Shown one piece after another: positions 13,482-34,936 of a DNA stretch of 64,000 bases; the first letter of the stretch is position 1, and each line of letters begins with the position of its first letter. Below the pieces are notes generated by a model. The model saw only the letters and a list, made by a program, of their open reading frames with translations. It ran no database searches and was not told the origin of the DNA. Source of the stretch: Isoetes taiwanensis (taxonomy: Eukaryota > Streptophyta > Lycopodiopsida > Isoetales > Isoetaceae); contig JAJEKV010000075.1 in NCBI GenBank assembly GCA_021234155.1, positions 2,783,280 to 2,847,279 of the forward strand, given 5' to 3'. A program made the translations under genes and the position numbers.

Positions 13482-16400
13482 TCAAGAGTTCTCATCATCG
13501 TCGTTAGCTTCTTTAGCCACTAATTCTTGCAACTGAGCCCCCACACTACTGGGGATCACCACTGACAATGGCCTGGTCTCTACGGCCCAACCATAGTCTA
13601 TTGTTTTCAAATGTTGGTAGCGTGGCGGGTCATTAGGATTGGGTCTCCAATTCTTGCTCCAGCAATCCCTATACTGCATTGCATATGAGGTTCCCTTTCT
13701 GGCAACAGGCTCAAACCAAGAGACAAACACCTCTTCGTAATGTGGGAGATTAGGGTCCTCTATTGGGTCCTCTTCGACAAAAGCCATCCACGTCGGCCAG
13801 TTATCACGTGGCCTCATTAGCAAGAGCATTCCTTTCTTGACATCTTGGTAGGGGTCGAATATTTCAACTAGGTTCTTGGGTCTATGGGTAAAAGCATGTT
13901 AGGGTGTACCACTTTTGGAACCTGCAAAAGTACATACACTAGGTACTTCTGAACTGGGTACTTTCTCATTTTTCTTTTCATTAAAACTAATACAAAAATC
14001 CAAAATAAAAGTCAAGGACATGGTAATATTCAAAGTTAAGGTAAAGATAATGCTATCGAAGACCAATATATATATATAAAAAGTTATAAAACATACCTTA
14101 TATTGAGATATTATACAGGTACCCAGTACCCAGTCCTGGCTACCTTTTTAGGTACCTTTTTAGTCACTAAATAATACTTTTTAAGGGACACCCTAACATG
14201 CTTTTACCCCTACCCGAGAAAGGCCCTACGTAATGAGATGCTTCAATGTGCTCATCCACAAACACGTTCCAATGCACTTTGCCTGGTGCTGGGCCAGAAA
14301 TCCTAAATGACAGCTCTACCGGGCTGCACGTCCCCAAGCACTCGCAGCAAGGTGGACCAGTAGTCAATAACTTCATTCATATATGTGTTGGACCATGAGT
14401 TATCGCCAGCTCTAGAAATAGCTGCCCAGTGCATCATGTACTTGGCAATAGAAGCTCTCAATGCACCTATATCTTTCAAGCTCCCATATGGCTGCACGAC
14501 CTTAGGTGACCCTCTCGGAATCATAGGTAAACCTTGGGCATCCTCCTTCCACATTCTGATTCCCTTTTCAGGGAGCCACTCCCTATGCCCTGGCCTCATC
14601 TTGTAGAACATTAGTGGCCATCCATCCTTCATGCAGAACTTGAAGAGTAGAGGTTCCAAATGACCACATAAACGGTCCTTCTTATCAGGGATAAAACCTT
14701 TCACGAATTCCTTCCAATTAGGAACCTCTGACACAAGGTAAGGTGAAGGAGACTTTGAACTACACTGCCTGAAGAGTTGCATAAGCTCTAGAATAGTCAA
14801 TGCATCTGATCTTCTCATTAGAGCAGAGTAGTTTCCAAAGAGGGCATCTATGTCATCGTGGGTGTGTCCAACCATCATGAATCCCAGCTGCACTTGATCA
14901 AAGACACCTAACCAAACCAAGTATGACAAGTAAGAGAAAAGATATCTATTCTTATTTTGACCTGAGCAATTATCTAGCTGCAAGTAAAGCCTCCTAGGCA
15001 ACTTGTTCGGTACCATGGGGCCTTTGTTAGGAGGCATAAAATCATTTCTACTGCCATTTACCATTTTTGTCCTAAGGGCATCTGTGTTTAAAATTGCTCC
15101 ACCCCAGCTGCTTTCAGGATGATCTGTATCTCTCAAATGGCCCCAATTATCCTCAGATTTATTCTCCAGTGTCTTCAAGGTATGATTCAAGGATCCCACA
15201 TGAAAATTAGAATCATCAGGCCAGAGGTCCAGTGAGAAGTGGCCCAAGGCACCTATACCATGGCCGTGCATGAGAGCACCTGTAACACTCACCTTCAGTC
15301 GTTCACCCCTCCATACAGACTTTGCTAGCTTTTCTAGACGAGGGACCAGGGTCTTATTCTGATCCATCTTATCATGTATAATGGTTAAAGCGTGCTCAGG
15401 AGATCTATGAGACAAAGCTCTCGGGACCGATAAAAGGCTCCTACATGAAATCTGGGCCGTCATATGTGATTTTCTCTCCATTGCAAGTACCCTTCTTTCA
15501 TTTGGATCTCTGGTCTTAGCAAGCTTTTCCTTTATGACAATACAGGTGTTACACTTAGAAAATGCTATCCTCTTAGCTATTGCCACCTCTGAATGATTCT
15601 CTTTCCAAGCAGACAGAAAGGACGAAGGAGAAATATGCTTGCCTGTCATCTCTGTAACGGTAATATCTACTTCTTGGTGTATATCCTTCTTAGTCAAGAC
15701 TGAAGGTAGCCTCTTAACATTTTGTCTGCTACCCTCGCTCGTAATTTTCGAGCGGTGTGGCATCGTCTCTGCGTTTTCATCTATGAACATAGATAGCACA
15801 GCATTGCCAGCCAAAGTATGAGACCTTGGCTTCTTAGAACCACTATTTCCGTGCTCAGCAATTCTGTGGCCATCATTGAAGAGCTTCTTCCACTTGTAAA
15901 AAGTGGAAATGGGTATGCCATAGGCTTTATGCCATGCTTTCACGCACACCTGTTTGTTATTCAACATCAGGTTGCGGACTACACCATTTTCAGAGCAAAG
16001 ATCTAGCATGTTATATGCAAAGGTTGTGCGCTCCGAGGACTTCATGTTCCAGTAAAAGGTTCTCATGCAAGCTATCTCCTTGGATGTAAAATTTGCACAG
16101 CATCTTTTCATGCAGCACAGTGATGACCTGAAGTCTAAAATAGCCTCAGCACTAGTTTTTCTTTCACATTTGGTCTGTGCTGGACGTGTCCCGGGTCTCC
16201 GATTGACCATGCGGTAAGGTCTCTTTTTGGTGATGCCAATTTCGGGTCTAATGGAGTAAGGTTCATTCTCCACATCCTTCTCCTTCATTGCAACCACGAG
16301 AGTAGAACCTGGAATGTTATCAACGAGCACGAAGACTATGGGCCATCTTACAAGGTCATGCAGTTGGGGCATTTCTGCACAGGCTTGGCAGTGCATAGAG

Positions 16401-16921
16401 ATCTTTTCGGGCATTGGAAATAGGCTCATGATAGTAGCAGCTATCGAGCCTTCCCCTAACTTCACGTCAGCGACAGCATGGTTTGGATCGGCAAAAACGA
16501 TAACACCATAACCGTAAGCCATGTGGCAGCATTCATGCATGAGTGTGCATGCCTTCTCAACTAACTCATCTCTAGAAAGCCCTTGCACATGATTCGTCTC
16601 ATTATTGGCTAATCTCTCATTGCCTCCGACCTGCCAGTTTATGCGTTTAATCTGTCCTGGTGGTGTGCAAACTTCTTCCTCTCTCACAAGCTGACCAGCA
16701 ATGTCCTTCTTGTACCACAACACAAAACTCCCCACAACTTCACCAATTTTTTCTATTTCCAGCTCGGGAATTGGTAGTGGCAACTGTCCATCCAAAACAT
16801 TCACAATCGAAACAACCACCATACCCTCCGGGACAATCGAATTGTGATGGCGCTCGAAATTGTGGACTCTTCCTTCTGCCACCTTTTTCCCCAGCAGATA
16901 AAGCGAGATTACATCCGCCAT
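13482..16921 (-). pseudogene. Element A transposase (DUF8039-like + DUF7869-type DDE)
   Basis: The main frame of 872 codons starts at ATG 16921 and ends at 14303. Residues ~1-75 resemble the DUF8039 module of plant CACTA-like proteins ('VAEGRV', 'LPLPIPELE'). A middle region has helix-turn-helix-like 'ISTFYKWKKLF' and a Cys pair. The C-terminal half matches the DUF7869 pattern: 'IIHDKMDQNKT', 'LYLQLDNCSGQNKN' and 'GFMMVGHTHDDIDALF', which supply candidate DDE acidic residues. Coding sense continues in a second frame (14376 down to ~14213) after an apparent shift near 14320. It is then cut by a MITE and resumes to the stop at 13482. The element B transposase is a distant homologue. These breaks probably inactivate it. 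Confidence 0.75.
13885..14210. mobile_element. MITE inserted in element A transposase (326 bp)
   Basis: Inverted ends of 23 bases agree except at the first base (read inward, GGGTAAAAGCATGTTAGGGT is shared). TA is duplicated at 13883-13884 and 14211-14212. The interior is AT-rich with repeated 'ggtac' and 'gtaccc' words. A TA duplication is characteristic of Tc1/mariner-type MITEs. Removing the MITE and one TA joins the flanking minus-strand coding sequence in frame (..GPFSG-RPKNL..). Confidence 0.85.
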
Positions 16922-18645: not shown

Positions 18646-18650
18646 AGAGA
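18646..18650 (+). repeat. LTR retrotransposon target duplication, left
   Basis: AGAGA, identical to 31830-31834. Five bases is the usual length for Ty3/gypsy integrases. Confidence 0.9.
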
Positions 18651-20296
18651 TGTGACGGTCCAGGGGAATATACGCCATAAATACGTATATTCCTGGATCC
18701 GTCACCATACAAGTCTATCTTCATAGCCTTGTATACCATAGATTGTATACCATAGATTGTGGCATGGCTAAGTTATTCTCATAACTTAGCCAACCATAGG
18801 TTAAGCCATTATCCACGTGGCCTTAACCTATTGGGGCACCGCCACACAGGACTCACCCGATTAGTGCCACGTGGCATCCTAGGTGGACCTAACTTATATA
18901 GGCTTAAACCCTAACCCTAGACCTCTTTCCAGCCCTAGCACCCAGAGACTCACCTACTCGTTCGAAACCCCGTTTCGAACATCGTTTGCTGTGGCATAGA
19001 CTGGTGCAGCAGCCCCAGCAGGGTAGACTCGTTCTTGGAGTAGGAGCGGCATCTCGTGAGTCGGAGACCATGGAGGCACACGGATCTGGAGGGAGAGCTT
19101 CAGGAGCAGGTATGTAGGATAGTGATTGTGATAGCTCATCTGGAAATTAGCATTCCAGATATGCTAGTATTTTGTATCTAGAGTAGAGCCATCCTAGAAC
19201 CCATATTCAACATCTTGAACCCTAATCAAGGAACCTTAACTATTAGTTAGATTTGTATGATTAGGTTAAGATGTTCTTCTTATGATTATTCTCATGATGT
19301 GATGAGTATGGATGTTGGTTGATCTTGTTTGCTCCTCTTGTATTGGGAAGGGGGGTAGAGACCTAGAGCCATATGTAGTATGCTCCTAGAGTAGATCCCT
19401 TAGTTCCTATTAGTTGCGGCTCAGGCATAGGAGCCCACCAGGCTATTGAGGCTATGATATGACTCCAAGCACCATATAACGGGGCTAGAGGGAAAGTGGA
19501 GGGGAGGATCCCTGCCGAAGGGGGCTTCGGGGATCCCATAGTGGGCTAGGCTTATGGTCGGTCACTTAGCAGTGGGCCGAGCATGGGTCCGACACCTCCC
19601 CGGGCAATGGTGTTGCCCTGCCTCTCGAGCTGCAAGTGTTGGCTTGGCTCTCGTTTTGGGGGGTTCAGTCCGGGTACGAATCGTGTGTCGCCACGATTCT
19701 CTAGCCGCCCACGGCACCTCTAGATCCCGGGAAGGGGAGATGCAACCCTTCCCCGCCTCATCGGACCAGGGGAGATGCAACTCGGAGTAGTCCCGATGGG
19801 TGATGCCATGGGATTGCGTGTCCGGAAGGCTAGAGTCTGATCTAGCCCATTTGCAAAGTATGCACAGGAGGGGCGGATGGAGTGGTCAACCCTAGCCATT
19901 GTTCTATGCCAGCCCTCGCCATTGCCATGACTCGGTTGCGCTCTATCTTGAGGCCTAGCCCGGTCACAGTCATCCTCCCACGAAGTCCGGAGCGGGGTAG
20001 GAGCTCTCATGTTTTATGGTTCGTGATTATCATCTTTGCCTTGGTTTATGAGTGATGCACTACCCTTCGAGGTAGTATTTGTATATGTTGATGCTAGTTC
20101 TGACGTGTTATCGCTTCCGCTGTTATAGGAGCCCATAGGGGAAGGGCGCCCAAAGACACCTTTCGTGTTCCCTTCCCGCACTAAGAGTCACCTCGAAAGC
20201 GGGTAGACGAAGGGGCCCATGCGGTTGCCGAGCCGGGATGGGGATTTCTCCGCGGCGCTGCGGCCGGGCGCCGTACGTTTAGCAGGGAGCGTCACA
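18651..20296 (+). repeat. 5' LTR
   Basis: A 1,646-base repeat, near-identical to 30187-31829. It starts with an inverted word pair (gaatatacg..cgtatattc, ~18664-18693). It contains two CACGTG G-boxes (18814-18819, 18868-18873), a TATATA at 18895-18900 and a telobox-like AAACCCTAACCCTAG at 18906-18920, which together look like the promoter. It ends GCGTCACA. Confidence 0.93.
18814..18920 (+). promoter_or_regulatory. LTR promoter: G-boxes, TATA and telobox
   Basis: Two CACGTG motifs, then TATATA, then AAACCCTAACCCTAG directly downstream. G-boxes bind plant bZIP/bHLH factors. Teloboxes (AAACCCTA) bind TRB-type proteins and are linked to Polycomb recruitment in plants. The assignment is by motif only. 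The same cluster occurs in the 3' LTR (telobox at 30437-30451). Confidence 0.5.
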
Positions 20297-20297
20297 A

Positions 20298-20309
20298 TGG
20301 TATCAGAGC
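20298..20309 (+). other. Primer binding site (initiator tRNA-Met)
   Basis: TGGTATCAGAGC, one base after the 5' LTR. It is the standard complement of the plant initiator tRNA-Met 3' end and primes minus-strand synthesis in many plant LTR elements. Confidence 0.92.
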
Positions 20310-20869
20310 GATGTTCTTGGTTGACCAAGAACTAGCACTGACCATAACCATGAAGTAGTCTAACAGGCCTATAGGGGTGTGAAATAAACATTTCCACCAT
20401 CGAACCGCGAAAATGGGGGAAAAATTTTTCTCCTAGGCAGTGGGTCAGGACTTAGTTCAAGTGTTAGACGAAAGTTGAGCGAGTCAAATTCATCTTCTAG
20501 TAAATTTGGAGTGAAAATTATGCATCTGCATCAAATTTCACCTGAAATGGGTCGAAGAATCATGCCAATCGGAGACCCAGGTGAAAAATGGCGCAAATTC
20601 ATAGGTTGCACTTCGAACCATTAGAAAAATTCGAAAATCTAAGTATAATATCAATTAATATAGATTTAACATATACATTAATAGTTAAATAATTACTAAA
20701 TATGGTGTAATTAATAAGGGGGGCTAATAAATAGGGGTAATTATGGTAGGAGAATATTCCCAGGGACCCTCCTTTTTAAATATCTGACACCTCATTCTCT
20801 CTCTCCAACCCTTCACCTTCACCTCTCTCTTGCTCAGCCTTACGTCACCCATTTCCTGAACCACAAGAT

Positions 20870-21967
20870 ATGGCACGCACCAAACAAACCTACAGGAAGC
20901 CTGGACCAAGACCTACCCTCTCCATGGCGCAGGCAGCAGGGCGACATGTGAAGAAGATCCCGGAGCACCTCCGACCCAAGAAAGGGGAAGAGGAGCTTCC
21001 CCCCAGCAGCAGCAGCGGCGGCGATACGTATCATGATGCCGAGGAGAGCCCCAGCAGCATCTCGTCATCGGGAGGCACACAGAGAACAGATGAGTCTCGC
21101 CACTTCGGGCCCTCGGATACCGAGGTGGAGGAACAGGTGGAAGAGCAGCACCACCACCAGACCGACGAAGCGGGCCCTTCAGCGCCCAAAAAGAAGGGGA
21201 AGGAAAAAGTCGCGGAGTGGCCAGAGGAGAGGGCCGCCAGGAAGAAGCGGGAGCGGGAGAGGGAGCTGAGGGAGCAGGAGAGGCGGACCAAGAGGAGGAA
21301 CGACGGCCCTCGCCGGACCGTCGTTATAGAAGAGGCCCGGCCGGAGGAGGAGCACCAACAGGAGGGCGACGGAGACGAGGAGGAAGAAGAGCAGGAGGGG
21401 GACCCCGACGCTAGGCCACCCTACCCTAAGTGGCCGGAACCACCTAAGGTGGTGAAGAAGCAAAAGGTAGGGGAGCGGGCATTCGCGCTCCAGCAGGACC
21501 GCGAGTTTAAGCGGAAGATGGTGGCATACAAGGAGTACCTTCGTCGTTGGACGAGGTACAATGAGTGGTATTGCCGCCAGGAGGTGCAGCGCGTCGTGGA
21601 GGGCGGCAGGCCGAAGAAGAACCAGCCCAAGCCACCCCCACCGAGACCGGAAAAACCCAAGAGGGTTCACCACGGGCCGAATAGCACATACGCCCGGGTG
21701 TTTAGGGAGATTCGGCACTTCCAGATGTGCACGAATCTCCTGATAAGGAAGGCGCCCTTCGAGCGTCTCCTTAGAGAGGTTTTGCAGCAGTTCCGGACCG
21801 ATTACAGGGTTACCCCTCTAATGACCCGGGCTCTGCAAGAGGCTTCCGAAGCAGAGCTGGTCCAGCTCTTCGAGGAAGGGAACCTCTGCGCTATCCATGC
21901 TAAGAGAGTTACCCTTATGCCCAAGGATATTCACTTAGCACGAAGGATTCGCAGAGAGAGGCCTTAG
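20870..21967 (+). CDS. Histone H3-like protein encoded by the retrotransposon (365 aa)
   Basis: An intact frame from the first ATG. The N-terminus reads [12 protein letters not shown], so H3 residues R2, T3, K4, R8 and K9 are kept, while A7 becomes Tyr and S10 becomes Pro. Residues ~24-38 keep an echo of the H3 'VKKPHRFRPG' segment ('[12 protein letters not shown]'). Residues ~45-270 form a charged, Glu/Arg- and Pro-rich insert with coiled-coil-like RERERE runs and KKKGK/KRR basic patches. Residues 272-365 are an H3 histone fold of canonical length: '[19 protein letters not shown]', '[15 protein letters not shown]', '[11 protein letters not shown]' and '[12 protein letters not shown]'. Loop 1 is not lengthened, unlike typical CENH3. 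Its position first in the element, before gag, suggests an accessory product. Incorporation into nucleosomes is unproven. Confidence 0.92.
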
Positions 21968-22195
21968 GCCTCAAATTTTGTAAATTTTGTAGGAAAGCTA
22001 AATTTTCATGTAACTATGTTTCTTATTAATATAAAAGTTATTTTCCCTCTATAATTAGAAAAATGTTGTATGCTTGAAATATAGGAAATAGAACCCAATT
22101 GTGGTAGAATTCTTCATAGCATGTCTAGAAACACCCTAGAAATCATGACTACAACAAAATTTTGGCAAAAAAATCATCTAAAATGCTGAAAATCG

Positions 22196-22480
22196 GGCCA
22201 ACCGGGTGAGACCGCGCCTAGGGCCTCTGCGTTCCCGACGCAGGCGCGTTTCGCGCGGATTCACCCGACTGGGCCCAAAATCAAGCTTCTAGATGTCAGT
22301 TTTGCTCAAAATAAGTTGCTAGTTAGGTTAGAATTGGCCCAATTAGCCATATTAGCATCTTCAAATTCCCTAAATTGACCAAAAATTGGCCCAAAACAGG
22401 CCAACCGGGTGAGACCGCGCCAAACGCGTTTGCGTCCGCGACGCGGAGGCCATCCGCGCGGATTCACCCGGGTCAGGCCA
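22196..22480 (+). repeat. Two related long hairpins between ORF1 and ORF2
   Basis: Two copies, 22196-22276 and 22398-22480, of an imperfect inverted repeat. The arms are 'accgggtgagaccgcgc' and 'gcgcggattcacccg', extended by ggcc/ggccc words. A smaller stem 'tgcgt..acgc' lies in each loop. Possible roles are translation control, packaging or RNA stability; none is shown. Confidence 0.65.
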
Positions 22481-22772
22481 TCTTTGAGCCAAATTAGCCA
22501 AATTTGATCCAACCAACTGCCATGTAGTGTTTCTTGCCTTGTTTTGCTTAAGTTTGCACTTCATGGTAGTTCATTTGGACACCCAGAGCCATAGAACCAA
22601 GGTCGTCTTAGGTAGGTACTTTTTTTGCACGAACCCCGAGGTCACCCATAGTCTATAAAAAATAGGCCCCATTTGCCATTTTTCTTCCTACAGAACTGCT
22701 CCCAGCCCCTTAGGCGATTTTCTGATCCTCCACTGATCCTTGCAAGCCATTTTCTACACCCTTTCCTGCTCA

Positions 22773-24300
22773 ATGGCGCCCAGCAACTTTGAGAGATGGT
22801 ACAATGCTGCCAGCCATATCCATCAGCTTCCAGTAGATCAAGCCTTCTCTGTGTTTGATCACTTGTTTGATCTTCACGCAACTTTGACTAGAACACCCTA
22901 CTACACAGACATTATGTGCCAATATGACCAGCAGGTCCTGCCTTGGGAAGTTAGACTGCCTCCTAGGGGAGGGAATTGGGTTTCCCTTGAGACACTTACC
23001 CAAGCCTTAGGTCGAGAGTTGGCAGGATCCAAAGGCAAGAAGCAGCTATGGGATAGGACTAGGACCATGCCCGATTACATGACCTGCAGACATAATAGGC
23101 ATAGGTACCTTTCAGCTCAGACAGCCCTTGCCCTCTTCATGCACTATAAGTCAATCAACAAAGTAGGGGAACCCTCTGTTCAGCCCTTAGACTTAGCGCC
23201 ACTTGATACCCGTAGAGCCCAGGATCAAATCCTGAATATAGAATCCTCCGCCTACGAATATTATGGCACGACGTCGGGGGCACCATCTCTGCAGATCCAT
23301 GAAGACTACGAGCAGCTAGGGGAGCAGAACCCAGAATGGGAGAGCAGGGAGGCAACAAGAATGAAGAGGTACGCGTCGAGGCACGACGACGACATGAGAA
23401 CAGCTACCGACCCACCAGTCGGCATCACAGCTCTGTCACCGATAGTCATCGACGGGGAGGAGTACATTTTTGCAAATGACATCCTCAACTTGTCCTATTG
23501 CCAGGAACAGGGTCTTCGAATCGACGAGCTCTTGGGCATGATAGCACACGGGAAGAGCACAGACCTCATCGACTACTCATACCAGGAGATCCCAAGGGAG
23601 CTGGCGGAGAGACACTCTTATGCTGGGGAGACAATGTCGGATATAGCAGCCTATCAGCAGATAAGGGAGATCTATCGACAGCAGGAACCTATCATCTCAG
23701 AGGAGGAGTTCCAGCAGATACAGAGCACACTCTACAAACCAGGGAAGGGCCCAAGCTCAAGCCGACCAGTTCGAGCCAGGAGCATGAGGGAAGGGTCCAG
23801 CAGCATCAACTTGGACAACGCAACCAGCATGTGGAGGGATCATGAAGACCTTATGGCGGTGGATGCCTACGGCGAAGCAGCTCAAAGGAAGGGCACTGGA
23901 TCGCGAGGCGTAGGGAAGGGCGGCACGCCGCTACTATCTTCCAGCCCTCAGCCAAGGGCAAATGATAGTCTTCCACAAGGAGTTCAGCCCAAGGGGGGAA
24001 GAATCCGTGGCACTTCTCATAGCACTTTCGGGCTTCGGGCAGCACTCGAAGATATACGCCCATGCCGATCACATCATTCTTTTTCAACGAGGCGGTCAAG
24101 GCCCATTGCCTCGACTTTGGGAGAGGGCACCTTAGGGATGCAACACTTTCGATGGTAGCAGAACAACGCCGAGAACTCCCGAACCGAGATGGCCCGAGCA
24201 CTTGAAGGAAGATCGACGAGGAACATCTTGCGCAACCTCGGCAAAGGCCTCCGATTCAGGGATGTCAAGAACTTCTTCAGGCTTTCGGGAGGCCATTGAA
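22773..24300 (+). CDS. Retrotransposon ORF2, unknown function
   Basis: The frame from ATG 22773 runs to 24158. The preferred start follows the CTCA context and begins MAPSNFERW. Coding-like sequence continues in another frame to a TGA at 24298-24300 ('RNILRNLGKGLRF..'), so a frameshift near 24150 or a sequencing error is likely. The N-terminal ~150 residues look globular (Trp/Tyr/Leu-rich, 'FDHLFDLHATLTRTPYY'). The middle is acidic, and the C-terminal part is Ser/Gln-rich and disordered. I recognise no domain. It lies between the H3-like ORF and gag. It might be a nucleic-acid-binding or capsid-like accessory, but nothing in the sequence shows this. Confidence 0.6.
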
Positions 24301-24520
24301 TAGTTGTAAAATTTTCTTAAGTTTTGTGCTAAATGTTTCTTGTACCCATTGTGCTAAGATATATCTACCTTATCATGTAATCCTTATGTATTAATGACTA
24401 TTAACTGTTTTGTCAATGTAAGGCTTTGTATGATTTCTTATAACTAAAGATAATTCAATTGCAAGTAAAATTGATCAACATCTAACCCAAATAAAATGTA
24501 TTGATGATCAATCCTTGCAG

Positions 24521-26328
24521 CAAGGAACTCAAGTGCAGGATCTCAAGATCAGCACCGACCACGCAATTGGGTACCAAGGAACTTGTTTGGCAGAGAACAG
24601 GAAGACTTTGAGCAGGATATGTCACCAGAGGCAGTCAACGCAAGGTTGGTGCAGATGAGGAACCAGATGCAACACCTCATCAACTGGGCGACACCTCTCA
24701 TGAATGCACAGGAAGATGGTCCTCCACCTCCACCTTGTTTTCCGGGTGGTGACGAAGTCCCTCAGCAGGAAGGGGAGGGCAACCAGGGGAACGTCAGGGA
24801 TAGGAGAAGGAAGAGGAGAACCAGGAGTCCATCATCATCTAGCTCCAGCTCATCAGATAGCTCTTCCAGTGAGGACAGCTCTGGCTCCGACAGTCAGTCG
24901 GGCACACCTAAAGCAAGGAAAAGAGCAAGAAAGACAGATGACTATCAGAAAAAGGTGGATAGTGCTATGAGCAATGTATGGAAGACAAGGAAGCTCGGCC
25001 AGTTCTCAGGGAAAGACAGATCAGGCATGGAGGCTGAAGCATGGCTTGATGAAATGGAAGAATTTGGCAACTCATACGGTATGAAAGACAAGGACATAGG
25101 GAAAGTTGCTACAGCTAACCTTATTGGACCGGCAAGGATCTGGTGGAAGGGATATGCTAAATCCAACAAGCTGAAGAGGAACAATTGCAGGTTTAAGACC
25201 TTCAGCAAGGCTTTCCGCAAGCACTATGTGCCAAGGTCTCATACTAGTAGACAGATTCAGCAGTTTTACAGGTTGAATCAGGGTAGCTTATCAGTGGCTA
25301 AGTATACCGAAGAATTTATGAGGCTCAGGCTGCATGTTCCTGGAGTCTCAGAGAGGCAAGCCGTGGATACTTACATTGAGGGGTTGAACAGCAATATCAA
25401 GAGGCTTGTTAGAGCAATCAACCCGAAGTCAGTTGCACAGGCCGAAGATAAAGCTATAAGTTTAGAAGAGGCACCAGCAACTCCAGCAGAGAAGCAGTCA
25501 ACCTTCAGGGGTAAGAGTTCAGGGCAGTATCAGGGACAATATCAGGGTAAGCAATCAGCAGCTACACCATCAGGGAGTCAGCAGCAAGGTAAGGGTCAGA
25601 GCAAAGCTTTTGGGGACCGTAAGCCACAGAATGCATCAGGGGGCAGCGCTCTTAAGCGTCTCCTAGACAGTCTGCCGAAGGAAAAGAGACAGGAATGCAT
25701 TGAGAAAAAGCTATGTTTCAGGTGCTTCCAGCCAGGGCACCGAACACATGATTGTCCATTCGTCATGCAGTCAGCCTTGGCAGAACTCTTGGATTGGGAC
25801 TCCCCAACAGAAGCGGACGAGGACGACGACCAGCAGGAGGGCCAGGACTTCATAGATGGTGAGTGCCACATGACAGGTGATATAGAGAATCAGTCAACTG
25901 TCATCGCTGCGGACGGGATCATAGATAGTAATCCTTATGTAGTCCTCATAGATACAGGTAGCTCTCATAATTTTGCATCTCCTAGATTGGCTGCTCTAAT
26001 GAAGAACAAGGTATTGAAGTCTAAGCCAAGGCCAGTAGCTATGGCAAACGGCGCCATTCGGCACACTAAGGGGAGGAGGATCACCTTTGACATAGACCTT
26101 AGTGGGGCTAAGTGGCCGATGGGAGCAGAAGTCATGGACATCGGAAGATATGATCTGATAGTGGGGATGGAATTTTTGAAGCCAGCCAAAGCCATGATTG
26201 ATTGCGACCGGAATGAAGTCACCATGACGGCACAGGCGGCAAAGTTGATAGTGAAAGGTAAGAAGCTAGATTCTCCCTATGCGGTGTATTTCTTTGAAGC
26301 GACTAAGGAAGAGTATAGAAAGGAATAA
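24521..26328 (+). CDS. gag: Gag with zinc knuckle and aspartic protease
   Basis: The frame is open from an apparent 3' splice site (ccttgcag, 24520). The first in-frame ATG is 24619, so gag may be translated from a spliced RNA or from that ATG. Order: N-terminal helix region; Ser/Asp-rich acidic linker; a retrotransposon gag (capsid) domain with 'AEAWLDEMEEF', 'GPARIWWKGYA' and 'FRKHYVP'; a Gln/Gly-rich linker; a CCHC zinc knuckle 'CFRCFQPGHRTHDC'; then a retropepsin-like domain with active site 'VVLIDTGSSHNF'. The protease remains in the gag frame, as in many chromoviruses. The frame stops at 26328 at the gag-pol boundary. Confidence 0.88.
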
Positions 26329-27165
26329 GGTGGATTACATCTTGAGGATGGAATCAGTTGAGCCAGGCAAGCAGGATGGAAGTGACCCAAAGGGAAATCA
26401 GTTGCCCAGGCAGATAGCAAGGCTTATTTCAGAGTTCAAGGATGTATTTCCGGATGAAATCCGGCACCGCCACCTTATAGGGGTGTGGAATGTAAGATCA
26501 CATTGGCTCCGGATCACGAAAGCCTACCAGTAAGGCGCCATATAGAATGAGCACCCCAGAATTGATTGAGCTCAAGAAACAGCTTCAGGAATTGCTCGAG
26601 CTTGGATTTATAAGAGCAAGTGTGTCTCCTTTCGGAGCACCTATACTCTTTGTGAAGAAGAAAGATGGGAGCTTAAGAATGTGCATAGACTATCGCCAGC
26701 TTAATAAGCAGACGATAAAGAACTAGTATGCATTGCCAAGGGCAGATGATCTAATGGACCAGTTACAAGGAGCAAAGGTATTCTCTAAAATTGATTTGAG
26801 GTCGGATACCATCAGATAAGAATAAAAAGAGGATATCCATAAGACCGCTTTGAACAGCGGTATGGTCACTTTGAGTTTACATAGAATGCCCTTTGGACTA
26901 TCGAATGCTCCAGCAACGTTTATGCGCCTCATGAACGACATCTTCAGAGACTTCTTGGATGAGTTTGTTATTGTCTTCTTCGACGACATCCTAATCTACA
27001 GCAAGTCCCTTGAGGAGCATTGTCAGCATCTCAGGAAAGTGTTGGAGAAGTTGAGACGTCATCGGTTGTATGGGAAGCTCTCTAAGTGCCACTTTGCAAC
27101 AGGCCGAGTGGAGTACTTGGGGCATGTAGTAACATCCGAGGGAATCTCCACGAGATCCATCTAAA
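26320..27165 (+). pseudogene. pol: Reverse transcriptase region of pol (broken)
   Basis: RT motifs are spread over several frames: '[25 protein letters not shown]', a stop codon before '[13 protein letters not shown]', '[12 protein letters not shown]', 'MPFGLSNAPATF' and the catalytic 'IVFFDDILIYS' (YxDD equivalent). At least two stops and several one-base shifts interrupt it. The order and identity are those of a Ty3/gypsy RT. The breaks cluster in this ~800-base region, whereas gag and integrase are nearly intact. Confidence 0.88.
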
Positions 27166-27570
27166 ATTGAGGCAATAGTTGATTGGCCAGCTCCAAGGAA
27201 TGTGGCGTAAGTAAGAAGCTTTCGGGTTGGCGGGATATATTACGAAAAGTTCGTCAAGGACTTTGGGCGGCGGGCGCCCCTTGTCGGACCTCACTAAGGC
27301 CAAGAAGATTAAGGATTGGACTAGCCATTGGTTAGAGAAAGTCCAAGCTTCTTTTGAGAAGCTTAAAGAGGCCCTAACGACAGCACCAGTGCTTGTTCTC
27401 CCGGATCCGAGTAAAGATAAGTTGGTAGCAACAGATGCAAGCAAGATAGCAACAGGGGCAGTCTTGATGCAAGAAGGAAGGGTAGTCGCCTACGACTCGA
27501 AGAAGATGATGAACGGCGAAAGCAACGCTACCCAACCCATGATCAGGAGCTGCTAGCCATTGTCAGGGCA
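27166..27570 (+). pseudogene. pol: RT-RNase H junction, N-terminal RNase H
   Basis: The frame 27227-27556 carries 'ALTTAPVLVLPDPSK' and 'LVATDASKIATGAVLMQ', the first RNase H aspartate region. It shifts near 27540 before the 'QELLAIVRALRIWRHYL' segment, which lies partly in the next frame. Identity as Ty3/gypsy RNase H is clear, and the frame is broken once or twice. Confidence 0.85.
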
Positions 27571-28668
27571 TTGAGGATATGGAGGCATTATCTGCTGGGA
27601 AGGAAGTTTCAGTTGGATACCGATCACCAGAGCCTTCAGTATCTCTTCACCCAGCCACTCCTCAACTTAAGACAAAGGAGGTGGATGGAATTCCTTGAGG
27701 AGTATGATTTTGATATTATATATAAGCCTGGTAAGCTTAATGTTGTAGCAGATGCCCTCTCCAGGAGACCATTTCAGACAAGGACGCATTGTAATGCGAT
27801 TTCCACTCTTTCGAGTGAGTTTGGCAAGAAGATTGAGGAGTCCTTGCCAACAGATGTGGACTTCAAGGAGGTATGGGAAAGCCTTTCCAAGGAAGCCAGA
27901 ACAGATAAGGAGCGGGAAGCCTTCAAGCATTATAAGAAGGAAGGCAACCTGTTGTATCACAAGCATAAGTTGTGTGTGCCCGAATCATCAGGGGTAAGGA
28001 AGCTAATTCTTCATGACACACATAACAGCCCAATAGCAGGGCATGCTGGCTTCATGAAGACCTATTTCAAGATTCGAAGTAGCTACTTCTGGCCAGGAAT
28101 GAAGAGGCAGATAGCTGCATATATTCGGGATTGCCAGCTTATGTCACTGGAGACCAAAAGCGAGCAACTTCGGATTCCAGGTGCTCTTGAGCCATTGGGG
28201 GTGCCAAATGCAAAGTGGGAGGTCATAAGCATGGATTTCATCACAGGTCTCCCTAGAACTCTTCGAGGCAAGGATGCATTGATGGTTGTCGTAGATAAGT
28301 TATCTAAGATGGCACATTTTGTGCCTTGCAAGACTACTGACACCGCATTAGATACTGCCAAGTTAATTGTAAGGGAGATTTTCAGACTCCATGGCATGCC
28401 TCGGGAGATAATATCTGATAGGGATTCCAAGTTTATGAGTGCCTTCTGGCAGGACCTCTTCAGCACCATTCAGACGAAGCTCTCCATGAGCACGGCATAT
28501 CATCCCCAAACAGATGGCCAGACGGAGAGGACGAATCGGATCATTGAAGACATGCTTCGGAACTATGTGTGGAACAAGCAGTCCAAGTGGGATGAGTACA
28601 TCCACTTGGTGGAATTCGCCTACAACAATTATGGCGGGAGTCATCTCAGATGTCTCCTTTCATGGTAA
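27571..28668 (+). CDS. pol: RNase H C-terminal part and integrase core
   Basis: A 365-codon frame. It begins in RNase H ('RIWRHYLLGRKFQLDTDHQSL', 'VVADALSRRP'). The integrase zinc domain has HDTHNSPIAGH and then 'YIRDCQLMS', where the second cysteine of the usual CxxC is Met, so the HHCC site looks defective. The D,D,E core is visible: 'VISMDFITGLP', 'IISDRDSKFM' and 'HPQTDGQTERTNRIIEDML'. The frame shifts near 28660, and the C-terminal part continues in the frame 28650-29321. Confidence 0.9.
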   Translation: MRIWRHYLLGRKFQLDTDHQSLQYLFTQPLLNLRQRRWMEFLEEYDFDIIYKPGKLNVVADALSRRPFQTRTHCNAISTLSSEFGKKIEESLPTDVDFKEVWESLSKEARTDKEREAFKHYKKEGNLLYHKHKLCVPESSGVRKLILHDTHNSPIAGHAGFMKTYFKIRSSYFWPGMKRQIAAYIRDCQLMSLETKSEQLRIPGALEPLGVPNAKWEVISMDFITGLPRTLRGKDALMVVVDKLSKMAHFVPCKTTDTALDTAKLIVREIFRLHGMPREIISDRDSKFMSAFWQDLFSTIQTKLSMSTAYHPQTDGQTERTNRIIEDMLRNYVWNKQSKWDEYIHLVEFAYNNYGGSHLRCLLSW

Positions 28669-29321
28669 ATTACGGGTACCAGTGCTTAACCCCGGATACC
28701 TGGCACAATCCTGTGTCCAAGGTAGAAGTATCCCAGCAGATGTTAGGGGATATGCAACAGCTAGTGGAAGAAGTAAGGGGTTATTTATTGGCAGCAAGAA
28801 GTCGGCAGAAGAGTGTAGCCGACAAGCACAGGACCGTAAGAGAATTCAAGGTAGGCGATAAGCGTCCGTTGAAGATAAAGGTGAAGCAAGCCAAGCCAGC
28901 AGTTGGGAGCTGCAAGAAGCTTGCCCCTAGGTGGGCTGGTCCGTTCAAGATTTTGGAGAGAGTGGGCTCTCAAGCCTACAAGTTGGATCTTCCAGCCCAT
29001 CTCAAGGTTCACAAGGTCTTCCACGTAAGTTTATTAAAAAGGCACAATCCTAACCCTGAGGAGGTTTTGGATACTCCAACCTTGTTGGAAATGACGGAGG
29101 AGCAAGTAGAAATAGTGCCTGAATTGCTTCTTGATAAGTCATTCAAGAAGACTAGGAGGTCTCAGTTCCTCCAGTATTTGGTTAAGTGGAAGCACTTACC
29201 CGTGGAAGATGCGACATGGGTATTGAAGCAAGACTTGGAGAAGCAATACCCAGAGTTTATGAAGGAGTTTGATGGGCGAGTCGTCTCCGACTTGGTCGAC
29301 CCCGACTTGCCAGGTGGTTAG
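28650..29321 (+). CDS. pol: Integrase C-terminus with chromodomain
   Basis: A continuation of integrase: the GPY/F-like region 'APRWAGPFKILERVG' and 'AYKLDLPAHLKVHKVFHVS', then a C-terminal chromodomain at about residues 155-205 ('ELLLDKSFKKTRR', 'YLVKWKHLPVEDATWVLKQDL'). A chromodomain at this position defines chromoviruses. In related elements it directs integration toward heterochromatin by binding modified H3, usually H3K9 methylated. Of the aromatic cage positions, the Trp residues in 'VKW' and 'ATW' are visible. The frame overlaps the end of the preceding integrase frame by 19 bases, implying a single-base break. Confidence 0.88.
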   Translation: MSPFMVNYGYQCLTPDTWHNPVSKVEVSQQMLGDMQQLVEEVRGYLLAARSRQKSVADKHRTVREFKVGDKRPLKIKVKQAKPAVGSCKKLAPRWAGPFKILERVGSQAYKLDLPAHLKVHKVFHVSLLKRHNPNPEEVLDTPTLLEMTEEQVEIVPELLLDKSFKKTRRSQFLQYLVKWKHLPVEDATWVLKQDLEKQYPEFMKEFDGRVVSDLVDPDLPGG

Positions 29322-29394
29322 CTAGTATGTTGTTAGTTAGCCTTAAGCCTGGCGCATGCATTCTAGTTACTAGGGTGCATGTGCCAGAACCTTG

Positions 29395-29775
29395 GATCGT
29401 GTGGGCGATGATGGGATACACCTTTAAGGCATTCTCTAGGCCACACGCACCAAGAGGTGCGCATGACCATTAGGGTCATGTGAGTGAGGAATGAGGCATG
29501 GTGGGCGATGATGGGACATCGATCGGATGATCTCTATGCCACGATGCGGGGTACGCACACCTGGCCGTAGGAGGGTCATGGAGAAGGTTAAAGTGATCAT
29601 GCGCGATGATGGGATCGTGAGACGTTCCCTAGCTTCAAACCCGTGGGGCATGATGCACTAGGGGTACTTCGGCACCTAAACCGAAAGTACAAGGTAGCAC
29701 TTTCGATCATGGGCGATGATGGGAGCATCTTAAATGATCCTTAAGCTCAAATCCGAAAGGGCCATGATCTTGGGC
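29395..29775 (+). repeat. Four spaced copies of GCGATGATGGGA with hairpin arms
   Basis: GCGATGATGGGA at 29405, 29505, 29603 and 29713, about 100 bases apart. Each is flanked by different but self-complementary arms, for example cgtgtgg..ccacacg, atcatgc..gcatgat and gatcatgg..ccatgatc. They lie between integrase and the 3' LTR. Confidence 0.65.
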
Positions 29776-30172
29776 AAGGTAGTAGGACAACCTTGAGTCA
29801 GTAGTTCGGCTCAAGGAGGTAAGAGGGGTGGTCCCCTAAAACCACAAATTATTAACTAAACTAACGTAATGTGCTCCTTTTGCAGGCAAGTAGAAGGTGG
29901 ACTTCAACGAGGAGCGCATTACGAGAAGATAGGGGGAGCCATAATTTAGATTATGAACCCTAATAACTCTTACAATAATGTTTTGAATTATCGTAAGAAA
30001 TAACCGTGTTAAGGCTATATAATTTTGTATAAGTACAAATATAGCCTAAATTTTTGACTTGAACTAATAAAACTTGATTGCTAAACTAAACTAAAGGTTA
30101 TGACATGTTGTTGCTTGTGCAGGCATAAGGTAGGTTCGTCACCTTAGCGCAATGCTGAGGACAGCATTGTCC

Positions 30173-30186
30173 TAAGGGGGGGAGAA
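30173..30186 (+). other. Polypurine tract
   Basis: 'aagggggggagaa' immediately before the 3' LTR: the expected plus-strand primer site. Confidence 0.85.
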
Positions 30187-31829
30187 TGTGACGGTCCCGG
30201 GGGAATATACATGCATAAATACGTATATTCTGGATCTCACCATACAAGTCTATCTTCATAGCCTTGTATACCATAGATTGTGGCACTAGGGGGCATGGCT
30301 AAGTTATTCTCATAACTTAGCCAACCATAGGTTAAGCCATTATCCACGTGGCCTTAACCTATTGGGGCACCGCCACACAGGACTCACCCGATTAGTGCCA
30401 CGTGGCATCCTAGGTGGACCTAACTTATATAGGCTTAAACCCTAACCCTAGACCTCTTTCCAGCCCTAGCACCTGAGAGACTCACCTACTGCTTTCGAAA
30501 CCCCGCTTCAACATCGCTTCTTGTGGGCATAGACCTGCAGGCCCCCGGCCAGGTAGACTCGTTCTTGGAGTAGGAGCGGCATCTCGTGAGTCGGAGACCA
30601 TGGAGGCACACGGATCTGGAGGGAGAGCTTCAGGAGTAGGTATGTAGGATAGTGATTGTGATAGCTCATCTGGAAATTAGCATTCCAGATATGCTAGTAT
30701 TTTGTATCTAGAGTAGAGCCATCCTAGAACCCATATTCAACATCTTGAACCCTAATCAAGGAACCTTAACTATTAGTTAGATTTGTATGATTAGGTTAAG
30801 ATGTTCTTCTTATGATTATTCTCATGATGTGATGAGTATGGATGTTGGTTGATCTTGTTTGCTCCTCTTGTATTGGGAAGGGGGGTAGAGACCTAGAGCC
30901 ATATGTAGTATGCTCCTAGAGTAGATCCCTTAGTTCCTATTAGTTGCGGCCTGTGCATAGGAGCCCACCAGGCTATTGAGGCTATGATATGACTCAGCAC
31001 CATATAACGGGGCTAGAGGGAAAGTGGAGGGAGGATCCCTGCCGAGTGGGGGCTTCGGGGGATCCCATAGTGGGCTAGGCTTATGGTCGGTCACTTCATG
31101 TGGGCGAGCATGGGTCCGGACACCTCCCTGGGGCAATGGTGTTGCCCTCCCTCGAGAGCTGCAAGTGTTGGCTTGGCTCTCGCTTTTGGGGGTTCACCGG
31201 TGCACAATCGTGTGTGTCGCCACGATTCTCTAGCCGCCCACGGCACCTCTAGATCCTGGGAAGGGGAGATGCAACCCTTCCTGCCTCATCGGACCAGGGA
31301 GATGCAACCTGGAGTAGTCCCGATGGGTGATGCCATGGGATTGCGTGTCCGGAAGGCTAGAGTCCTGTCAGAGCCTGATCTAGCCCATTTGCAAAGTATG
31401 CACAGGAGGGGCGGATGGAGTGGTCAACCCTAGCCATTGTTCTATGCCAGCCCTCGCCATTGCCATGACTCGGTCTGCTCTATCTTGAGGCCTAGCCGGT
31501 CAGTCATCCTCCTTACGAGTCTGAGCCGGGGTAGGAGCTCTCATGTTTTATGGTTCGTGATTATCATCTTTGCCTTGGTTTATGAGTGATGCACTACCCT
31601 TCGAGGTAGTATTTGTATATGTTGATGCTAGTTCTGACGTGTTATCGCTTCCGCTGTTATAGGAGCCCATAGGGGAAGGGCGCGCAAGACACCTTCGTGT
31701 TCCCTTCCCACACTAAGAGTCACCTCAGAGTGCGGGGTAGACGAAGGGCCCATGCGGTTGCTGAGCCGGATGGGGGATTTCCTGCCGAGCGTACGGCCGG
31801 GCGCCGTACGTTTAGCAGGGAGCGTCACA
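30187..31829 (+). repeat. 3' LTR
   Basis: Aligns along its whole length with the 5' LTR (1,643 against 1,646 bases). Differences are mostly clustered 1-4 base indels in GC-rich parts, plus a missing ~10-base duplication near 30280. It carries the same G-box, TATA and telobox cluster. Confidence 0.93.
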
Positions 31830-31834
31830 AGAGA
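31830..31834 (+). repeat. LTR retrotransposon target duplication, right
   Basis: AGAGA, matching the left copy. Confidence 0.9.
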
Positions 31835-34035
31835 GCATGGAACTAGTATTGGGGATGGTGCGAATGAATTGAATACCTGCTGCTGGCTGCCACTGCAAGG
31901 ATGTGGCATATTTCTTTCCTTGTAAGATGCCCTTGCCATCTACAAGTGAAATTTTGATCTGATGCTGAAATGTAATGTTTCTCAAGGGCTCAATAGCACA
32001 GTGACCCAGTTGATCTCTCCGAAAAATCCATTCTTTGAAATCATAAGTTTCTTCCAATAACTCGATGTCTGGACGAGGATTGTAGGAATCTTGGATAACC
32101 TCAATCATTGCTGGTAGGCTGAGAGCTTTTTTTCGAGCAAGACGTTTAGAGAACCTACTGAACATCTGATCAATTTGATCGTGTGTATGACCAACAAGCA
32201 GGAAACCAATCTTCACCTTCTTGAAGATTTGTTTCTCTACTAGCATAGCACAGTAAGCAAACAACGCCTGATTCTTATTTTCCCTTGTCGTGTTGTCTAG
32301 CTGAAGATACAGAACCGGTGGTATATGTTCTAGATTGGAAAGAAGCTTATTCAATATTGTGATAGTGAGATTTGGATCAGCATGAATATTTGGATAATTC
32401 AAAAATGCCTTGCAAGATAGTTTTCCATTAAATACCATAGCACCAACAACATGCAGATGTATGAAATCTTCTTCAGCAGCATCCTTAGGCACATTGACAA
32501 AATGTGGTAGGGTGGTCTTCTTCTGGTCCATTCCATCAATAACAACTGATATGTAGTTGAGTGGTTGTTCCAGTGCTTTCTTCCTATGTTTTGTCAATTT
32601 TCTCCTTTCCAAAGATTGTTGTTCCCTGTGCTTGTTCAGTTTCTCCTTCAATGCATCTGAAATGAAAATATGTTTAGGAAAGAACCTACTTTTGAGTAGA
32701 ACTAGGCAAGAACACGTCCTGGAAGCTTACTTTTAGTGTGAAGTGTCCTTGCATTTTGTCTCTGAGCTTTTAATTCAGAGCATGTAGCACAAACAGACAT
32801 CCGGTGCTTTCTAGGAATGGACATGCGAGAAAACTCTTTTTTCCAGAGCACAGTGAAGTAAGAGTAGCAGACATGGCGTTCTCCAGCCTCGACACACATG
32901 TCCTTGTAATTATCGTAGACTTCACGTTTCCTGAAGTTGTCACTCAAGTGGTACATGGGGCTGTTAGGGAGTTTCTCGCAACTCCTTAAAGAAACCTTCC
33001 ATCCAGGAAACACATTGAAGGGCATGAATTCTGGATATACCTCCTGAATGGCAGTAGTCATTAATGCCTGGATTCTTGTCAAGCCTTTTCTTCAGGCGGT
33101 GAAGTCGTCTGCTGCCTAAAGCATGAATCAATTTGAAGGCCGTTTGACAGACGGCGTGGCCACCAGCTGTGTAAGTAAACTTCTCACCACAATCTGGCCT
33201 AATATTGAAGGCTAAGTAGCCCCTTTGGTCTAGCAGAGTCATTGAACTGTAAGTATCACGAATCAACCTCAACTCCTTTAGTCCAATCTTAAGCAAACAA
33301 CGTTGAGAACAACAGTGCTTTGTATGTGTTGCCCGCAAGTGAGCCTCGTCCATGAGTTTCTTTCTTCTAACGGTTGTACATGCTTTCTTGTGTAAGTTAC
33401 GCTTAAGATTCTTACTTGCAGGGGCTTTGAATTCGAACATGGAGTCTTGTGGCTGAGAGATCTTGTGGCTGTGTTTCTTCGTCTGAGAGATCAACATGAG
33501 GTGTACTTGTAGATGCTGAGAGGTTTGATGTGGGCAAGTCCTGGGGGGAGGTGCTTTCCCTCTCTCTGGGAAAAAGTAATCGAGGCTGGTGACGTAGTTG
33601 ACCAGCTCCTGAAGTGTCGTAGTAGAACACAGGAGTTGCGTGTCGCTGACTGCTCCCACTTGTTGTAGTACCATTTAGTGAAATGGATGGAGTTGGTGTG
33701 ATTTGCCTCCATGGAGGGAGCCTACGGTGGACTATGGGCGACGTACTAAAATGAACTGGAGTAGGTAGTCTGAGCTCTCTAGCCTGTGGTGGAGTAAAAC
33801 GCATTGGTGGGGGCAAACGACGTTCAGGAGCAGGGTGTGGTGGAGTAAATTGAACTGGTGGTGGAAGCCGAGGTGGTCATGCTGGAGTAAGCTCAACAGA
33901 GCTGGGTGTTGGAATGTCGGAGCTAGAATATTCGTGACTACTTCCTGGTGTCTGTTGAGGAGGTGTGAAAGTCATTGCAGGAGGGAGCCTGCGAACATGA
34001 GTTGGAGGCTCTGCAGTTCTTTTCTCTCGAGCCAT
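31835..34035 (-). pseudogene. Element B transposase, 5' part (DUF7869-type DDE)
   Basis: The likely start is the ATG at 34035. A Pro-rich N-terminus repeats 'RRLPPxMxFTPPQ' and has one in-frame TGA near 33880. It passes through a Cys-rich module ('HTKHCCSQRCLL'), a helical region and 'MSVCATCSELKAQ'. A likely intron follows (donor aaaGTAAGC near 32732, acceptor tttcag near 32656). The catalytic part then has 'VVIDGMDQKKTTLPHF', 'LYLQLDNTTRENKNQALF' and 'GFLLVGHTHDQIDQMF', the DUF7869/DDE pattern also found in element A. The gene is cut at 31835 by the LTR retrotransposon and continues at 18645. It is divergent from the ParB-like gene across the palindrome array. Confidence 0.8.
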
Positions 34036-34058: not shown

Positions 34059-34732
34059 GTATAAATTTATACGACAGAAGAACAGACGGTATAAATTTAT
34101 ACAGAGATGGTATAAATTTATACAGGAAAGGGAAACTCTTGGCGGCAGACAGTATAAATTTATACGGAGATGGTATAAATTTATACAGAGGAGGGCAACA
34201 TAGAACAGTAATGGTATAAATTTATACGAAAACTCACAGACACTTGTATTGGAAACTTTATGGAGAAACGCTATACGAAACGACACTTAGCAGGGGTACT
34301 TAAGCCCGGCGCCGGCCACCCTATTTTCCATATACGCAGCTCGGAGTCGAAGGCGCTCGCGGTCCGCCTTATATACCCCTTCTTATTTGCTCTCCGGAAC
34401 GTCTATACGCTAGTCCATACGGTCATGGCCACGTAAGTCTACTTTCCGTACTGTTTTAGTTTCTCTTTTGTCTTAATCTGTTAGAGTGTAAGCCCCCACG
34501 GTATAAATTTATACCGAGATGGCTCTGGATCGGTATAAATTTATACGCCCCGTGCTCGAGCGGTATAAATTTATACCGTTAAAGAACACTTGCGGTATAA
34601 ATTTATACCGGATGTGTTCTGGAACGGTATAAATTTATACCGCTCGAGCACGGATCGTATAAATTTATACCGATCCAGAGCCATCTCGGTATAAATTTAT
34701 ACCGCTCTTGCTCGGGGCGTATAAATTTATAC
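34059..34732. repeat. Array of 14 GTATAAATTTATAC palindromes in the divergent promoter
   Basis: The perfect 14-base palindrome GTATAAATTTATAC starts at 34059, 34089, 34110, 34152, 34173, 34214, 34501, 34533, 34563, 34595, 34627, 34657, 34689 and 34719. In the second group it often extends to CGGTATAAATTTATACCG. The array occupies the gap between the transposase start (34035) and the ParB-like gene (34937). Binding by an element-encoded protein is the obvious idea. Each copy also contains TATAAA on both strands and could act as a core promoter. Confidence 0.95.
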
Positions 34733-34936
34733 CGTATCAAAATTGTTTTGGAATCTTGGTGTCTAGTGCTTAAAGAATAGACCCGAACCTTAATATTTTA
34801 GTAATATTGTTGTGTTTTAAGCTTAAATAAGACAAAAGAAGTGTTAATTTAATGTGGATTTTATGCCCTTTTAGCCTCCGTTTTTACTGTTTTTGTGTGT
34901 CAAAAAGTCGAAAAATGTTCTGTTTTTTACGAAAAA

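Follow-up and report, generated by a model that had tools for sequence, protein, structure and literature searches.

A histone H3-like first gene in a Ty3/gypsy chromovirus lineage of Isoetes taiwanensis

We found that a complete Ty3/gypsy chromovirus of Isoetes taiwanensis carries, ahead of its usual genes, an intact open reading frame (ORF1) whose product ends in a fold derived from histone H3. The frame recurs at the same place in many copies of the element, its H3 fold and neck are under purifying selection, most of the H3 DNA-contact positions that we compared are kept, and a second, related family carries an H3 fold as well. We consider, with about as much confidence as doubt, that the lineage kept a captured host H3 as its first gene and that the product is a nuclear variant which likely enters nucleosomes and alters chromatin. 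Translation, nuclear import, nucleosome entry and an effect on silencing or targeting are predictions made from sequence. Host and transposon contest over chromatin, and a selected H3 variant encoded by the element itself would be a direct, testable handle on the way in which retroelements act on nucleosomes, affect silencing marks and choose their targets.

Structure of the element

By reading the sequence, comparing repeats and searching Pfam, we delimited an element of 13,179 bp at positions 18651-31829 of the window, the 64-kb stretch of I. taiwanensis DNA that was analysed (Table 1). The LTRs, the 5-bp target-site duplication, the primer site, the purine tract and the order gag, protease, reverse transcriptase (RT), RNase H and integrase are those of a Ty3/gypsy element, and the chromodomain at the integrase C-terminus (Chromo 1.5e-11, in this first family) makes it a chromovirus. 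The order of genes is H3-like ORF1, ORF2, gag-protease, broken RT, RNase H-integrase and a tail with SH3-like region and chromodomain; the element therefore resembles other chromoviruses in its gag-PR-RT-RH-IN-chromodomain order and 5-bp duplication, but differs from them in having two further genes, ORF1 and ORF2, after the leader and ahead of gag. We take the primer site to be of the initiator tRNA-Met type. The earlier note had described an intact 365-residue frame inside a complete retrotransposon with breaks in the RT region, and all of this was found. The RT used to locate the window RT by tblastn, that of the second family, itself bears RVT_1 in Pfam.

Table 1. Features of the chromovirus in the window
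Feature	Positions	Strand	Basis
Target-site duplication AGAGA, left	18646..18650		sequence
5' LTR, TGTGACG...CGTCACA	18651..20296	+	repeat comparison and sequence
Primer binding site TGGTATCAGAGC	20298..20309	+	sequence; one base past 5' LTR
Leader	20297..20869	+	present in 19/20 copies fetched through H3
ORF1, H3-like protein, 365 aa	20870..21967	+	ORF, Pfam, PDB, copy comparison
H3 histone fold of ORF1, residues 271-365	21680..21964	+	Pfam, PDB sequences and copy alignment
Hairpin 1, between ORF1 and ORF2	22204..22266	+	RNA folding, motif search, alignment
Hairpin 2, like hairpin 1, 203 nt downstream	22407..22469	+	RNA folding, motif search, alignment
ORF2	22773..24158	+	no Pfam family matched
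gag and aspartic protease	24583..26328	+	Retrotrans_gag 1.6e-16, RVP_2 1.2e-09
Reverse transcriptase region, broken over several frames	26496..27556	+	sequence; tblastn to second-family RT
RNase H end, integrase zinc and core domains	27421..28668	+	Pfam and sequence
Integrase C-terminus, SH3-like and chromodomain	28596..29321	+	SH3_Tf2-1 1e-20, Chromo 1.5e-11
Polypurine tract AAGGGGGGGAGAA	30174..30186	+	sequence; directly before 3' LTR
3' LTR	30187..31829	+	repeat comparison and sequence
Target-site duplication AGAGA, right	31830..31834		sequence

When the two LTRs were aligned with blastn, there were 45 mismatches along with 50 gap openings over 1,684 columns; with MAFFT there were 123 mismatches in 1,623 aligned sites and 20 gap events. 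Because of these mismatches and gaps we conclude that the window copy is not new, and that indels are abundant either in the copy or in its assembly. The ORF2 frame of the window copy diverges from that of many other copies past approximately residue 384, and structure prediction for ORF2 without an alignment was poor (pLDDT 33.6). No tRNA gene was found in the window, and no Rfam match there reached the gathering score.

The ORF1 protein

The C-terminal part of ORF1 matched the Pfam family Histone (PF00125, E 3.6e-28, residues 251-361) and, among PDB sequences, histone H3 (E 2.5e-31, residues 254-364). The profile search was thus not null, and the fold similarity in both searches bears out the earlier claims that the protein ends in an H3 fold and that the frame derives from H3. 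The ARTKQTYRK start that had been reported is present, but it follows a Met. The protein consists of an H3 tail (residues 1-9), a charged insert that is Ser/Glu/His-rich and basic, a basic neck (approximately 179-270) and the H3 fold. In the aligned first-family rows MARTKQT was found at the start in 20/21, with residue 7 variable, and R8-K9 likewise in 20/21. The canonical tail 10-44, with K14, K27 and K36, was not kept; approximately 230 charged residues stand in its place, and there are basic stretches resembling nuclear localisation signals at 107-111 and 124-127.

In a protein search with the whole of ORF1, the best 120 of 3111 matches were ordinary or tandem H3 proteins, judging by their names and three fetched sequences. 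The neck region (178-285) had 40 candidates in the protein collection and none at E<=10, in a search that sees only proteins with exact 5-residue words in common. Among viral contigs no match was found; 37 stretches fitted a pattern and none was confirmed. The structure of ORF1 predicted without an alignment was poor (pLDDT 52.6). By eye, the leader of ORF1 has the look of a gene leader, with a T/A-rich stretch and a CT-rich run ahead of the ATG.

Copies of ORF1 in the assembly

We searched the assembly from which the window comes (1.66 Gb, 1110 contigs). Frames for the RuBisCO large subunit, 490 and 512 aa long, indicate a photosynthetic host. There were at least 113 matches to ORF1, corresponding to 112 copies with 77-100% identity (best 112 of 21,557 candidates scored). 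No internal stop was present in 81 of these 112 and a stop was present in 31; the ranking by likeness to the window protein favours intact, slowly changing copies. Once a diverged copy was added as query, at least 215 distinct places were obtained.

In 20 copies fetched through H3, ORF2 lay downstream in 20/20, while LTR and leader lay upstream in 19/20, both missing at L012. Further, 10 copies were picked through ORF2 from 74 ORF2 rows with no listed H3, a check that is free of selection for H3. The H3 coding sequence was at the expected place in 10/10, mostly interrupted by frame changes or gaps; several of the loci L029-L037 were disrupted. Since the H3 frame recurs before ORF2 in 20/20 copies, and H3 coding sequence in 10/10 reached from ORF2, its presence is not due to chance. 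It is a recurrent feature of the element family; copies lacking it, which the earlier note had named as a refutation, did not appear among the copies read. The note had suggested looking for the frame between primer site and gag in other copies; leader and LTR precede it in 19/20, and ORF2 also intervenes before gag.

Among the matches listed, H3 lay on the same strand at mostly constant spacing before 37/92 ORF2 matches (0 on the opposite strand), before 24/75 gag matches (0 opposite) and before 36/150 chromodomain matches (1 opposite). For 51/75 gag matches no H3 was listed upstream, and 109/150 chromodomain matches had neither first-family H3 nor ORF2 listed; as the lists hold the best matches, these numbers speak neither for nor against a real absence. 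Second-family H3 was paired with 0/150 of the chromodomain matches listed. With only best matches listed, presence of the gene in every relative cannot be claimed.

Selection on ORF1

We calculated dN/dS by the Nei-Gojobori method for 20 copies, including the window copy; this set was ranked by likeness to the window protein, which lowers dN. Mean dN/dS was 0.104 overall, 0.039 in the fold, 0.056 in the neck, 0.119 in the tail and 0.243 in the acidic stretch 151-178. The corresponding dN values were 0.0135 for the fold, 0.0208 for the neck, 0.031 for the basic stretch 106-150, 0.076 for the tail, 0.099 for the insert and 0.212 for the acidic stretch. Mean pairwise non-coding divergence in the same 20 copies was 0.066 in the leader and 0.120 in the LTR. 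The dN of fold and neck was clearly below the leader divergence, and that of the basic stretch lay between; tail, insert and acidic stretch changed no more slowly than the non-coding leader. Mean dS of ORF1 was approximately 0.49, far above the leader and LTR values of these copies, and such a high dS lowers the dN/dS ratio.

In six copies chosen through ORF2, not by H3, fold dN/dS was 0.082; subsets of the ORF2-picked copies gave 0.028 (four sequences, window included) and 0.168 (three). Differences at codon positions 1, 2 and 3 numbered 200, 94 and 668, respectively (21 pairs of 7 sequences including the window copy, the pairs not being independent). For ORF2, dN/dS came to 0.099 across 300 codons; the five copies compared had been selected as having an open frame.

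The H3 fold and neck are under purifying selection. The earlier note had taken the open frame as a hint of constraint; an open frame in a single copy is weak evidence, and the substitution pattern of the fold is real evidence. Our claim of constraint accordingly covers the fold (dN/dS 0.04-0.08) and not tail and insert, which evolve no slower than the leader.

Comparison of the fold with host H3

As host reference we used 15 matches with 95-96% identity to canonical plant H3, each covering all 136 residues in one frame. The first-family fold aligned with host H3 over positions 49-135 without a gap, so that loop 1 has the same length in both, and the commonest residue agreed at 59/87 positions. 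Residues were counted in 25 first-family rows; L033, with its out-of-frame start, was excluded, as was any row in which the fold is shorter. Out of 13 H3 positions which we take to be DNA contacts, 10 keep the host residue in 25/25 rows (R49, R63, K64, R69, R72, R83, K115, R116, V117 and T118), and three are changed (K53 to H, K56 to M or Q, F84 to V or I). C110, H113, D123 and L126 were likewise unchanged in 25/25 rows, and K79 was replaced by R in 24/25. The alpha-N contacts of the first-family fold are altered. In place of the host's SSAVL in the chaperone loop (86-90), PLMTR prevails among first-family rows and TFAIL among second-family rows. K56 and K79 were unchanged in 8/8 second-family copies; judging from these residues, their loss appears confined to the first family and so not common to both.

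A second, related family

The canonical H3 query also gave at least 135 matches with 70-85% identity, many of them within frames of approximately 420-500 aa. Eight copies of this second family were fetched and encode a protein of 409-421 aa in which a different N-terminal part and a linker precede the H3 fold (Pfam 2.5e-41 in one copy). The N-terminus starts MAITKSAPDP... and variants of it, the ARTKQT start not being kept, and an ARKS-like motif occurs in the linker of some copies. The fold is closer to the host, with commonest residues in agreement at 74/87 positions. We counted at least 102 second-family matches, 68/102 without a stop (hand count); these 102 places and the 135 canonical-H3 matches come from separate lists that may share members. 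A search of the protein collection with the N-terminal residues 1-290 (L051:470-1696; loci L047-L054), likewise confined to proteins that have exact 5-residue words in common, gave 2435 candidates, of which none reached E<=1. The eight copies had come from the canonical-H3 list; among them dN/dS was 0.041 in the fold, 0.109 in the N-terminal part and 0.292 in the linker.

By blastp the protein downstream of the second-family H3 is a relative of ORF2 (1e-5 and 6e-7, each from a single comparison). In three copies we read on; all three have a relative of ORF2, and two have gag. L057 has gag-protease and RT; in L056 gag-protease runs into integrase, and we therefore regard this copy as rearranged; in L055 there was no gag within its 4.5 kb. 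Identity to the window element was 34-48% in gag-protease, 91% (68 aa) and 65% (57 aa) in RT, 67-73% in integrase and 47-59% in the SH3-like region, which was read short of the chromodomain. Between the ORF2 relative and gag there is also an open frame of 165 aa that is alike in L057 (frame at 1259) and L056 (frame at 1143).

One capture or two

Both families have F54 and a C-terminal Pro (24/25 and 7/8 rows) where the host has Y and A, and Q77 in most rows where the host has E. A tree built from 58 distinct folds placed the canonical H3s on one side of a branch (support 93/83) and both element families on the other; the alignment had 87 columns and two long rows. These observations are consistent with a single capture of H3, the tree being no proof. 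First- and second-family folds agree at 59/87 positions, a level similar to that seen in parts of pol, and between the N-terminal parts blastp detected no significant similarity. Outside the fold, ORF1 has been remodelled or exchanged. As the 15 best host H3 matches are themselves single-frame and 136 aa long, the absence of introns from ORF1 is uninformative on whether a cDNA or a gene was captured.

Possible roles of the element-borne H3

In the explanation that we favour, a Ty3/gypsy chromovirus lineage would have acquired a host H3 coding sequence long ago and retained it in first place, ahead of ORF2 and gag-pol. The ORF1 product would be an H3 variant that enters the nucleus, as the two basic stretches suggest, pairs with host H4 and is built into nucleosomes, loaded by a chaperone route other than that of host H3. 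There it would alter chromatin, either on newly made DNA of the element itself or at its insertion sites. First-family nucleosomes would be without K27, K36, K56 and K79, by which silencing may be blunted or landing sites marked, and the retained residues 1-9 could still allow K4 and K9 to be written or read. Nucleosome entry could be poor, given the altered chaperone loop 86-90 and alpha-N contacts. In a stronger form of the proposal, which we hold tentatively and with doubt prevailing, the retrotransposon lineage builds its own chromatin and uses variant nucleosomes against silencing or for the choice of landing sites; under this proposal the H3 would have been carried long enough for the lineage to split into two families.

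It is possible, though rather unlikely, that the frame is selected for a function outside nucleosomes, either assisting Gag, integrase or reverse transcription as a cofactor, or acting as a decoy for host H3 chaperones, methyltransferases or silencing factors. A decoy or cofactor would suit a protein that keeps MARTKQT and R8-K9 in 20/21 rows while most of its tail is replaced, that contains a long charged insert, and whose chaperone loop has changed in both families, differently in each. However, C110, H113, K115, R116, T118, D123 and L126 are kept in 25/25 rows, which is beyond what a tail decoy would need, and the ARTKQT start is gone from the second family.

That ORF1 encodes a centromeric, CENH3-like histone which steers the element to centromeres we regard as improbable. 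Its alpha-N motif REIRHFQ..TNLLI, which we take to resemble that of plant CENH3, counts in favour. However, loop 1 of CENH3 is longer than that of H3, and here it has host length, with no gap over 87 residues; the second family, moreover, is plainly H3-like. The chromovirus CRM elements are themselves centromeric, according to the part of PMC3059260 that was available, which also fits such a role.

Less probable still is a passenger gene that was captured and then copied along without benefit. The internal stops in 31/112 scored copies, the disruption at several of L029-L037, and a tail and insert that are not slower than non-coding leader would all be expected of such a gene, but fold dN/dS of 0.04-0.08, a fold dN well under non-coding divergence and the excess of third-position differences would not, nor would a fold kept in two families with dissimilar N-terminal parts. 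Finally, we give hardly any credence to a host H3 variant gene merely lying inside or beside a retrotransposon: the leader resembles a gene leader by eye, but ORF2 follows H3 in 20/20 and LTR and leader precede it in 19/20 of the copies fetched through H3, and the spacing to gag and chromodomain is mostly constant.

If the favoured explanation is right, the element may shape the packaging of the DNA around it. The protein is also a natural H3 with many changes in tail and chaperone loop and a fold that is still strongly constrained.

Relation to known systems

In the open-licence literature of PubMed Central (no preprints) we found no histone-bearing LTR retrotransposon. The earlier note knew of no class of element carrying H3; this agrees with the literature searched as far as LTR retrotransposons are concerned, but not beyond them, as fungal hAT DNA transposons with a captured H3-like gene are described in the available parts of PMC3538342 (Pyrenophora tritici-repentis) and PMC6710886 (Pseudocercospora fijiensis and relatives). 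To judge from these excerpts, a host H3 was captured and multiplied by a transposable element there as here, and insertions in the N-terminal tail are also present in the H3 of the P. tritici-repentis hAT (PMC3538342). The fungal elements, however, are DNA transposons with terminal inverted repeats (TIRs), whereas the Isoetes element is an LTR retrotransposon; and in P. fijiensis the H3 copies are inactivated by RIP except for the original, according to the portion of PMC6710886 consulted, whereas here the fold is selected in two families. The window element is not a hAT of the fungal type, as it has LTRs, RT and integrase in place of TIRs and hAT transposase.

Single viral histones, namely xenomavirus H3, prasinovirus H3 and bracovirus H4, are reviewed in PMC9145170. 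In the sections seen of that review they are similar to ORF1 in that a single near-host histone resides in a mobile or viral genome and is thought to enter host nucleosomes; they differ in that they belong to DNA viruses and have host-like chaperone sites, which are replaced in the Isoetes element. The word 'retrotransposon' is absent (0 occurrences) from the main text of that review, as is 'Histone' (0 occurrences) from that of a review of additional ORFs (PMC7264820). Orchid Ty3/gypsy elements with an m6A demethylase (2-ODD) likewise carry a captured host domain, a different one, in the excerpt of PMC9289625. The survey of Neumann et al. (PMC6317226), in the passages available, includes plant Ty3/gypsy elements with additional ORFs, as here, and gives 21.4% of eORF proteins as similar to known domains. 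The capture of host genes by mobile elements is therefore already known; what is new, as far as the literature searched goes, is that a Ty3/gypsy lineage has captured H3 and that its fold has stayed under selection.

Hairpins, chromodomain and neighbouring reading frames

The two 63-nt hairpins had folding energies of approximately -45 kcal/mol per 78-nt stretch folded, with z of -4.2 and -3.9. By a loose search for the end motifs, at least one hairpin was found in 20/20 loci L009-L028 and one in L038, L029-L037 being too short. In the alignment of 25 of the 63-nt rows, change on both sides was seen in 3/22 pairs. The predicted hairpins are conserved and their covariation is thin; they could serve re-initiation, RNA packaging or as a terminator.

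Of the three aromatic residues that form the H3K9me cage of type I chromodomains, the window chromodomain (28650-29321) appeared on inspection by eye to have only the middle Trp, and the domain looks type II-like. Chromodomains of type II, without cage residues and without a known partner, are described in the accessible part of Neumann et al. (PMC6317226). An H3 made by the element would be an attractive candidate partner. A loop in which the element would both write and read its own H3 tail is not supported, as the outer aromatic cage residues appear to be missing by eye.

Several other reading frames were observed in the window. Two contain DUF7869, at 14303-16921 (minus strand, 1.8e-42) and 31812-32651 (minus strand, 4.7e-54), the latter overlapping the end of the 3' LTR; they are probably other transposons. 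At 8244-9215 (plus strand) there is a DUF659 frame (1.1e-27), presumably a remnant of a hAT-type transposase. A frame similar to N6_N4 DNA methylases lies at 37862-38440 (plus strand, 6.6e-16) in repeat-rich eukaryotic DNA, with a frame of 355 aa at 35407-36474 upstream of it. Dense self-complementary repeats at 34499-34738 and 36367-36556 precede the methylase-like frame and are possible ends of another element.
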